A DNA stretch of 46,996 nt. Source: an uncultured Hyphomicrobiales bacterium (GTDB lineage: Bacteria > Pseudomonadota > Alphaproteobacteria > Rhizobiales > Devosiaceae). Position 1 is the stretch's first letter. The number at the start of each line of letters is the position of its first letter. This document shows, one piece after another, positions 15,714 through 17,390 of this stretch. Location: contig CAIMLX010000032.1 of assembly GCA_903842455.1 (NCBI GenBank), forward strand, positions 1-46,996, given 5' to 3'. Under the pieces are notes generated by a model that was not told the origin of the DNA, made no database searches, and saw only the letters and a list, made by a program, of their open reading frames with translations. Both the position numbers and the translations under genes were made by a program.

Positions 15714-17390
15714 CTAGAATAGGAGGTCGTCGAGGCTGGCTTCTTCAGGCTCGGGTTCGGCGGCGGCCGGGGGCGCGCCGGCGAAGGCGTCGTGGATGCG
15801 GCGCTCCATGTCCATGGTGTAGCGCTTGCGCAGGGCGGCAAGGGTATCGGCGGGGGCGTCGCCATCGCCGGCAAGCGCGGTGACCTCGAACTCGACGTCG
15901 CTGAGGGCTTCGCAGATGGAGTCGTACTGGCCGAAATCCTGCATCGCCTGGGTGAGGCGGCGGGTAATGGTGGGGCCGTCCTGGTCGAGGGCGTGCATGG
16001 CGGCGGCCATGCGGGTGCCGATGCCCGCGAGCAGGTCGAGGCCGCTGGTCGCCTCGGCCTCCATGGCCCCGACACGGTGGGCGGCCACTTCGCCGGTCGC
16101 GGCGGTAAAGGCGGCGGCAACCGAGGCGGCGTCGGTGAGGCGCTCGGCGGCCGAGTGGGCCGAGACGACGGTTTCACCGGTGAGGGTGCGAAGCTGGGTG
16201 GAGATGACGTCGAGCGCCCGGCCACGTGGCCCGAGCTGCGCGCATTTCACGGCCGCGTTCAGCGAGACGAGGCGCATCTCGTACTCGACATCCTGCACCG
16301 CTTCGACATGACCGAGCAGCACGCGGACCGTTTCGGCGACGGCATTCGCCACCCGGTCGAGCTTTTCGCGCTCGGCCTCGTAGGTGCGAAGGATCACCAC
16401 CGCCTTCTGCAGGGCCGACTGCAGCGAGGCGAGGCCGGAGTTGGCCCCCGCCCCGTGCGCCGTGCGAACCTGCGCGAGGGCGCGGGTGGCCTCGCGGGCC
16501 AGATCGCCCAGGGCTGCTTCGCCCGAGGCCATTTCGGCCGAAAGCGATTCGCGCGCCGAGACGAGTTGCAGGCGCTGCAGCTCGGCGATGGCGGGAACCA
16601 CGGCCGGGTCACCCTGGGCCAGGTCGCGCAGGGCGGCTTCGACGTGCTCGACGCGCTGCCGGGTCGCGTCCCCGACCTGCAGGGCCATGACGGCGGTGCC
16701 GACGCGGGCTTCGATGTCGCGCGAGGTGCGGCCGGTATCGCTGCTGATCTCGATCGAGCGCTGGCGCTGCGCCGTGACATCGGCGAGGCCGGTCTCGAGC
16801 GCGTCGGCGAGGGTGGCCAGCGTGGCGCGGTGGGTCGTCTCGAAGGTGCCGCGCGCATCGGCGGCATCGCGCACGGCCGCGGCGAGTTGCTGGTAGGTGC
16901 GGGCGAACTCGGCGATGGTGGTGGCCGCCCGGTCGGACAGCTTGGCGATATCGGTAGTGAAGACCTCGAAGTCGTCGGTGTCGGTGACGATGCCGGCGGC
17001 GGTGACGCGGGCGTTGATGGCGACGATCGACATCATCTTCACCTGCCGGCGGAGGTCGTCGATGGGGTGGCCGGCGGAGGCCACCACCTGCACGAGGCGG
17101 GCGACGTCGCCCTGCTCGGTGGCGAGCGCATCGGCGATGGCGCGGGCCCGGCGGCCGACGAGGGCCAGGCGGTCGGTCGCGGCAGCGAGTTCGGGGCTCT
17201 GCAGTTCGGCCGGCAGCGCCTCGAAGGTGGCGGTGAGGCGCGACAGGATGCCGGCGCACTCGGCCAGCTTGTCGCCGGCCGAAACGAAGGCGTCGTCGAT
17301 GGCGTCACGCGGGCCGGCGAGGCCCTCTGCCGCGGCGAGGAGGCGCGCCGGCGTCGGGTCGGTCGGCTGGTGCTGGGCCGTGGCACTCAT
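15714..17390 (-). CDS. Soluble helical chemotaxis protein with two receptor-tip-like segments and CheZ-like motifs
   Basis: This 558-residue protein has no signal peptide or membrane segment and is predicted to be almost all helix. Two segments resemble the receptor hairpin tip (typical [20 protein letters not shown]). They are [12 protein letters not shown] followed by [13 protein letters not shown] (residues 122-153) and [20 protein letters not shown] (374-393). About 120 residues after each tip comes a helix like the CheZ catalytic one (QDFQDLTGQ): [14 protein letters not shown] with D241/Q245, and [11 protein letters not shown] with D490/E494. The C-terminus, [10 protein letters not shown], is like the CheY-binding tail of CheZ. 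The ATG overlaps the cheB stop by ATGA, so it is the last gene of the che operon. The regularity suggests internal duplication (about 30-280 and 285-540). I know no named family; CheY phosphatase, adaptor or scaffold are all possible. Confidence 0.7.

Follow-up and report, generated by a model that had tools for sequence, protein, structure and literature searches.

By full-length homology, the 558-residue protein encoded by the gene that closes a che operon is a member of the family of TlpC of Rhodobacter sphaeroides and not of the CheZ family, and its residue pair D241/Q245, which resembles the catalytic pair of CheZ, lies in the most conserved block of that family. We tentatively favour, as close to an even chance, a reading in which the protein is an array-docked CheY-P phosphatase, similar to CheZ in mechanism but not itself a CheZ. 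A CheZ-like motif in a receptor-like protein suggests that the TlpC-family protein may be an overlooked off-switch of the swimming signal.

Operon context and feature coordinates

The 558-codon ORF was verified by ORF reading of the window (the whole stretch of DNA analysed, 46,996 nucleotides). As the original prediction had it, the ORF ends the che operon: its ATG overlaps the stop codon of cheB by 4 bases (ATGA), and the next gene downstream encodes an alpha/beta hydrolase. The operon order is STAS-CheY-CheA-CheW-MCP-MCP-CheW-CheR-CheB-ORF (Table 1), and the real start of the CheW ORF at 24013..24876 probably lies near the cheA stop. Just upstream of the operon, the window encodes a response regulator whose output domain is of the HD type (27708-28757, minus strand). 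It also encodes a BiPBP_C-domain penicillin-binding protein (28876-31023, minus strand), adjoined by a bacterial alpha-2-macroglobulin of 1832 aa (31152-36650, minus strand); these two form a usual gene pair.

Table 1. Coordinates of the che operon and of features within the TlpC-family protein (window positions)
Feature	Position	Strand	Basis
TlpC-family gene, 558 aa, tandem receptor-like hairpins	15714..17390	-	ORF, alignment, TlpC homology
Acidic-aromatic tail ASLDDLLF, residues 551-558, CheZ-tail-like	15717..15740	-	Alignment, profile windows
Second invariant block YTM..ER..H, residues 524-533	15792..15821	-	Alignment
Second hairpin (receptor-like), residues 263-504	15879..16604	-	Whole-protein model, phmmer
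Second CheZ-like pair of the original prediction, residues 490-494, not conserved	15909..15923	-	Alignment
Receptor-tip-like segment 2, residues 360-412 (N378 33/33)	16155..16313	-	phmmer, alignment, profile windows
First hairpin (receptor-like), residues 1-262	16605..17390	-	AF2 model, Foldseek
Invariant motif with CheZ-like pair D241/Q245, residues 237-249	16644..16682	-	Alignment, top CheZ window match
Weak receptor-tip-like segment 1, residues 112-162	16905..17057	-	Alignment, profile windows
CheB, directly 5' of the TlpC-family gene, 4-base overlap	17387..18508	-	Pfam
CheR	18519..19394	-	Pfam
CheW	19420..19884	-	Pfam
MCP	19896..21860	-	Pfam
MCP	21908..24016	-	Pfam
ORF with CheW domain at residues 132-270	24013..24876	-	Pfam
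CheA	24504..26531	-	Pfam
CheY	26528..26920	-	Pfam
STAS-domain protein, taken here as the first operon gene	26893..27267	-	Pfam

Assignment to the TlpC family

The original prediction recognised no named family; full-length homology instead places the protein with TlpC of R. sphaeroides (tblastn E 3.2e-23, 25.0% identity over 572; 25.5% over 554 positions in the alignment). A profile of the N-half was searched against 248 genomes from the taxonomic family of a Rhodobacteraceae member and matched 21, of which 3 were already known as holders of a TlpC-family gene. Genome G539 encodes a reaction-centre M protein (PufM) identical at 254/254 positions to a solved M chain, whose PDB entries we take to be from R. 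sphaeroides, and carries the homologue as an ORF of exactly 580 aa in the order CheY-CheA-CheW-CheW-CheR-CheB-ORF. Since the TlpC of the literature has 580 aa and lies in the CheOp2 operon (passages of PMC3964821), length, operon order and PufM identity agree, and we identify this ORF as TlpC. TlpC of G539 had no Pfam match at E 0.01, and in a tree of family members only it grouped with three Rhodobacteraceae rows at 100/99. A second TlpC-family protein of the same genome (595 aa, L211:1087-2871, minus strand) has the pair D267/Q271 and the tail DDILDVLF, shares about 24-25% identity with both TlpC and the window protein, and lies near STAS, CheY and MCP genes.

TlpC has reportedly been on record since 2002 as a receptor-like protein. 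Passages of later articles describe it as receptor-like with the usual glycine turn missing (PMC6829392, PMC10924463) and as without transmembrane segments (PMC6829392, PMC3964821). By passages of PMC6829392, two-hybrid tests show binding of TlpC to CheW4 and CheA3, and the protein is found in the cytoplasmic cluster, which becomes diffuse once TlpC is lost. Control of CheA3 by TlpC was proposed in 2019 (PMC6829392) and control of CheA4 in a 2024 review (PMC10924463, in excerpt). In searches of openly licensed PubMed Central articles on a phosphatase role for TlpC, on the Devosia gene and on an alphaproteobacterial CheZ substitute, the reading as a phosphatase was put forward in none of the titles and abstract starts listed and in no passage covered of PMC6829392, PMC3964821, PMC10924463 and PMC2924250. 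The binding and localisation data speak for a soluble receptor-like scaffold. It would couple either CheA with CheW or one array with another, and the conserved motif would be a protein contact, for instance with CheA or CheW, with no catalysis, a reading that we regard as doubtful in the light of the tip sequences and conserved blocks described below. The link between TlpC and CheA3 is compatible either way, with a further phosphatase or with a regulator of CheA3.

Distribution and gene neighbourhood

In a search of 61 relative genomes, 24 matched at E 0.001; 14 long matches and 1 contig-end fragment belonged to the family by score, and the remaining 9 genomes gave only weak receptor-like matches. 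A second CheA of the window type, a class judged from match scores and from adjacency where contigs allow, was read in 16 of the 61 relatives, and 15 of these 16 have the TlpC-family gene (the one without it is only 71% complete), compared with 0 of the 45 relatives without such a CheA. A pattern-based scan, in which each species was represented by a single genome, found 113 stretches, of which 99 were confirmed and 79 loci kept. These loci span Devosia, Pelagibacterium, Mesorhizobium, Roseomonas-type, Rhodoplanes, Rhodobacter-type, Sphingomonas, Novosphingobium, Caulobacteraceae, Acetobacteraceae and Rhodoblastus genomes, among others. The survey for the same gene after cheB bore out the expected arrangement: the gene directly follows cheB on the same strand at 75/79 loci, faces cheB at 3/79 and lies upstream of the che operon at one (L095). 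Among 24 further loci read with a 1.5 kb flank only, 16 have the gene directly after cheB, 6 have another arrangement, and 2 had no tblastn match to the window protein. The TlpC-family gene is thus a regular part of che operons of the window type.

A class-wide search with a whole-length profile matched 143/385 genomes at 1e-12, and among the matches listed only five were family-like by score and span (G000, which is the genome of the window, G103, G111, G421 and G404, the last covering the first part only); the other matches listed start only beyond about position 240 and probably represent receptors. Because only three candidates per genome were scored, this search is a poor census. A plasmid search matched 14 records, of which 2 covered at least 80% of the query and are annotated as 'hypothetical protein' and 'chemotaxis protein'. 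Devosia ginsengisoli has a second TlpC-family match near cheW, cheR and cheB (L087:3281-4219, also L043; 313 residues read), and two divergent Rhodobacteraceae members (L186 and L188) lie beside cheY-cheA, not cheB, and end in FEWF, not LF/FF.

Predicted fold and internal repeat

The protein is predicted to have the receptor hairpin fold: the whole-protein model (pLDDT 85.6) is a receptor-like double hairpin, and the N-half (residues 1-262) folded alone (pLDDT 91.0) best matches receptors in Foldseek, where chemoreceptors fill 14 of the best 15 rows (best E 1.8e-5, probability 1.00). With the whole model, the best Foldseek match had only E 3.3e-3, so that none reached E 0.001, and the highest-Z rows of a second fold search were unrelated helical membrane and pore proteins. 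A CheZ chain was not found among the fold-search matches listed for the whole model and the N-half, an absence that is no proof. In a phmmer search against the PDB, residues 274-504 matched the Thermotoga receptor 3ja6/2ch7 (E 1.3e-4), and of the matches of the PDB sequence search eight were receptors and one was a designed protein.

An internal duplication, as originally proposed, was recovered by hhalign of the N-half against the C-half (92.6%, E 4.7e-7, versus 57.2%, E 1e-4 for a reversed half), and the offset between the two tips is 252 residues. The two receptor-tip-like segments of the original prediction did not hold equally well: the best 21-column window against the MCP profile scored 27.7 for segment 2, against 14.4 for the reversed profile, whereas segment 1 was weak (15.9 against 14.4), though in the right register. 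Pfam gave no family above cut-off in the 558-aa protein (PF00015 scored 9.5 bits against a cut-off of 34.6), and PF00015 weakly matched 11/14 orthologues at E up to 1, the best at 9.6e-6. The conserved MCP tip is absent as judged at positions 130, 133, 382 and 385 of 33 aligned rows, with the tip E and R replaced by T130/G133 in tip 1 and K382/Q385 in tip 2.

For the scaffold, the receptor-like fold and tip 2 count in its favour, with N378 kept in 33/33 rows and the glycines of the tip, at positions 387 and 390, in 28/33 each; the divergence of tip 1 and the loss of the usual E and R in tip 2 count against it. Receptors usually contact CheA and CheW through their tips, and the longest invariant block of the TlpC family lies at the hairpin end opposite the tips, which further disfavours the scaffold.

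In a VIA-align superposition, residues 1-260 fall on residues 248-514 of a receptor; with the methylation site numbers that we assume for receptors, this puts D241 near the C-terminal methylation helix by linear count. On this placement the invariant motif might be a remnant of the receptor methylation helix, or a variant of it, serving in adaptation. We consider this highly improbable: the E/Q-E/Q pair pattern is absent, D, R and G are invariant, and passages of PMC10924463 speak of little evidence of TlpC modification.

Conserved blocks

Conservation was read from a 33-row alignment (the window protein, 13 orthologues, 17 profile-search rows from the class-wide and Rhodobacteraceae searches and both R. 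sphaeroides proteins; seven rows dropped), with 17-85% identity to the window protein. The motif pattern was used to pick none of the 33 rows; the 17 profile-search rows are partly motif-selected because the search profiles contain the motif, and the 14 rows from the search of the 61 relatives are free of motif selection. Residues invariant in 33/33 rows are Q238, G240, D241, Q245, R246, N378, Y524, E529 and R530; L42 (one gap) and R244 are kept in 32/33 and T243 in 22/33. In a 36-row alignment, D241 and Q245 were both 36/36.

Two CheZ-like acidic helices had been proposed, of which only D241-x3-Q245 is conserved; at D490-x3-E494, D490 is D in 2/33 rows and E494 is E in 15/33. A second active site at D490/E494 was accordingly rejected, D490 being found in only 2/33. 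For the YTM..ER..H block we know of no counterpart in CheZ or receptors; it could lie near D241/Q245 by helix pairing, and the invariance of its Y524, E529 and R530 in a block with no known CheZ counterpart favours the scaffold.

Comparison with CheZ

In CheZ, D143 and Q147 hydrolyse the CheY phosphoryl group, and this E. coli numbering was confirmed by count. PF04344 (CheZ) was not among the 7 Pfam families found up to E 10 for the 558-aa protein, which also had no match to PF04509 or PF13690 (CheC/CheX/FliY). Aligned with CheZ by hhalign, the family scored 23.5, not above the reversed controls (21.7 and 22.6; insignificant); the C-half, which lacks the motif, scored higher than the N-half (23.2 versus 20.4), and one run placed its best match elsewhere, at residues 387-437. 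Homology to CheZ by profile-profile comparison was rejected, the hhalign match not being significant.

The profile match to CheZ that had been anticipated survives only as a top-ranked local window. The best ungapped window between the family and CheZ puts D241 on the D of CheZ DLTGQR, and this pairing of D241/Q245 ranked first at 6/6 window lengths and in 11/12 settings of another comparison. Column shuffles (n=300) reached the score 1, 36, 8, 3, 1 and 22 times at lengths 7, 9, 11, 13, 15 and 21; in the comparison with 12 settings, shuffles reached it in 67/200 in one setting at length 9. A block-shuffle null, which can leave the motif intact, was excluded as evidence. Across lengths 7-21 the family-CheZ windows scored 11.9, 11.1, 13.2, 14.0, 16.1 and 15.1, and an MCP-versus-CheZ control scored 12.7, 12.3, 14.0, 13.4, 14.7 and 16.5, above the family at 4/6 lengths. 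Because hhalign is about level with its reversed controls and the MCP control is as high, the window score is no proof of CheZ homology. What counts, at the level of sequence, is that the best-matching place is the catalytic pair, within the most conserved block of the family.

With a hydrophobic-face fit over residues 210-258 (period 3.5), D241 lies at 94 and Q245 at 146 degrees, compared with 111 and 162 for the CheZ pair. Over 12 helix fits, D241 lay at least 90 degrees from the hydrophobic face in 5 and Q245 in 9, and both residues of the CheZ pair did so in 6/6; the angle is CheZ-like in the longer fits with period 3.5 and not in the short upstream fit. In the AF2 model, the D241/Q245 pair is about 100 residues from its own hairpin turn, whereas the CheZ catalytic pair lies about 35 residues from the turn.

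C-terminal tail

The predicted LDDLLF tail is present, and relatives mostly have an acidic stretch ending in LF or FF. The tail is similar to the FliM N-peptide of the same genome (NQDEIDSLLGF) and to the CheZ tails of relatives, which read like SQDDIDALF, and the family tail on the CheZ tail was the next best independent window pair at lengths 7-13, in the same chain order. Both MCPs of the operon end in nearly identical acidic tails with F, possibly docking peptides reminiscent of the TlpC-family tail. As these MCPs also have such a tail, that of the TlpC-family protein need not serve CheY.

The tail and the position beside cheB and cheR would also fit a protein that docks or sequesters CheY, or one that tethers CheB and CheR. 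Its tail and motif would then keep CheY-P, or else the adaptation enzymes, at the array without hydrolysis. The resemblance to the CheY-binding peptides of FliM and CheZ favours this reading, but the tail also resembles those of the MCPs of the operon, and the D-x-x-x-Q-R block, invariant and 300 residues ahead of the tail, would be left unexplained; we therefore consider it unlikely.

Chemotaxis phosphatases in genomes with the gene

The gap in CheZ, CheX and FliY that the protein had been proposed to fill exists in the operon and, for CheZ, in the whole genome, where PF04344 was found neither in the genome of the window nor in 18 genomes of the same genus; it does not extend to CheX/CheC-type proteins, of which the genome has one in a separate che operon. 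This further operon (L217, G000:C184, about 4052-12944) also encodes a CheW-repeat protein, CheB, CheR, a separate Hpt ORF and a histidine-kinase/CheW (HATPase/CheW) ORF, and its CheA looks split or frameshifted. CheX was found in 3/46 and CheC in 5/46 gene-holding genomes, that of the window being one of them.

CheZ is present in 18/61 relatives. Among CheA-positive relatives it was found in 0/15 with the gene and in 17/33 without it (Fisher p 3e-4, uncorrected for kinship). CheZ is missing from 37 of 44 gene-holding genomes selected among those behind the 79 loci, and the 7 with both are of the Roseomonas type (4), Rhodoplanes (2) and another Acetobacteraceae genome. It is absent in 16 of 19 further gene-holding genomes (Rhodobacteraceae search, R. 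sphaeroides included), the 3 with CheZ all coming from the class-wide search. Overall, CheZ is absent in 53/63 gene-holding genomes and coexists with the gene in 10/63. G103, G111 and G421 have one or more CheZ matches each beside the TlpC-family gene; as they hold both, gene and CheZ are not strictly exclusive. The R. sphaeroides genome G539 had no CheX or CheC match, and no CheZ was found in it.

Discussion

Observations that count for a phosphatase are the invariance of D241, Q245 and R246, the top-ranked CheZ window, the pairing of the tails, the helix angles in the fit over 210-258, the likeness of the tail to the FliM N-peptide and to CheZ tails, the absence of CheZ from most gene-holding genomes, R. 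sphaeroides included, and the association of the gene with the window-type CheA. Against it we count the absence of a Pfam or hhalign match to CheZ, the MCP control, the shuffles that reached the window score in 67/200, the lack of a CheZ chain among the fold-search matches listed, the distance of the pair from the turn, the helix fits, the coexistence with CheZ, the incomplete conservation of T243, the publication of TlpC as receptor-like and the similar tails of the MCPs. Under the phosphatase reading, the two receptor-type hairpins would pair with each other, so that one chain takes the place of a receptor dimer. This bundle might join or dock on the chemoreceptor array, compatible with the two-hybrid contacts of TlpC with CheW4 and CheA3; the flexible acidic-aromatic tail would catch CheY-P, and D241 and Q245, on one helix face, would hydrolyse its phosphoryl group as D143/Q147 do in CheZ.

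More tentatively still, the family may be a further class of CheY-P phosphatase, derived from duplicated receptor hairpins, with the D/Q pair near the place of the methylation helix and TlpC as its first studied member. Chemotaxis needs fast removal of CheY-P. R. sphaeroides is a much-studied multi-pathway system without CheZ (PMC2924250, in excerpt), and by the same 2010 passages no phosphatase had been identified for its chemotaxis response regulators except CheA3 for CheY6-P. If the proposal is true, the family would supply the missing phosphatase for CheY3 and CheY4 of R. sphaeroides, as well as one for alphaproteobacterial che operons of the window type that lack CheZ. That TlpC belongs to a widespread family in which a CheZ-like pair is invariant joins two puzzles, the role of TlpC and the phosphatase of R. 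sphaeroides.

Comparison with known systems

With the CheC/CheX/FliY phosphatases, whose pattern is E-x-x-N, the TlpC-family protein would have only the proposed job in common; it has no match to their Pfam families, and E-x-x-N is not what the TlpC family conserves. The MCP signalling hairpin (PF00015; Tsr 1qu7/3zx6, Thermotoga 2ch7) is similar in its long antiparallel hairpin, which gave the best Foldseek matches, and in the N of the LNA tip common to both. Unlike an MCP, the protein falls below the Pfam cut-off, has two hairpins per chain and no sensor domain that was found, and has the E and R of the tip LNAA.EAAR replaced. With CheZ (PF04344) it shares the D-x-x-x-Q pair, followed by an R just as it is in the CheZ of alphaproteobacteria, and an acidic-aromatic C-terminal tail; T243 is common to both, but is kept in only part of the family. 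It differs from CheZ in being over twice as long, with two receptor-like hairpins, in the position of the pair far from the hairpin turn and in the lack of a Pfam or hhalign match.

The closest known system is TlpC itself. R. sphaeroides works with a split CheA3/CheA4 cytoplasmic cluster (passages of PMC6829392 and PMC3964821), whereas the operon of the window has one CheA and two MCP genes; in R. sphaeroides no MCP gene lies between cheY and tlpC. The two are alike in the place of the gene after cheB, in the YTVPEER block and the tail EEDLADIFF of TlpC, and in the invariant pair, which is D237/Q241 in TlpC.
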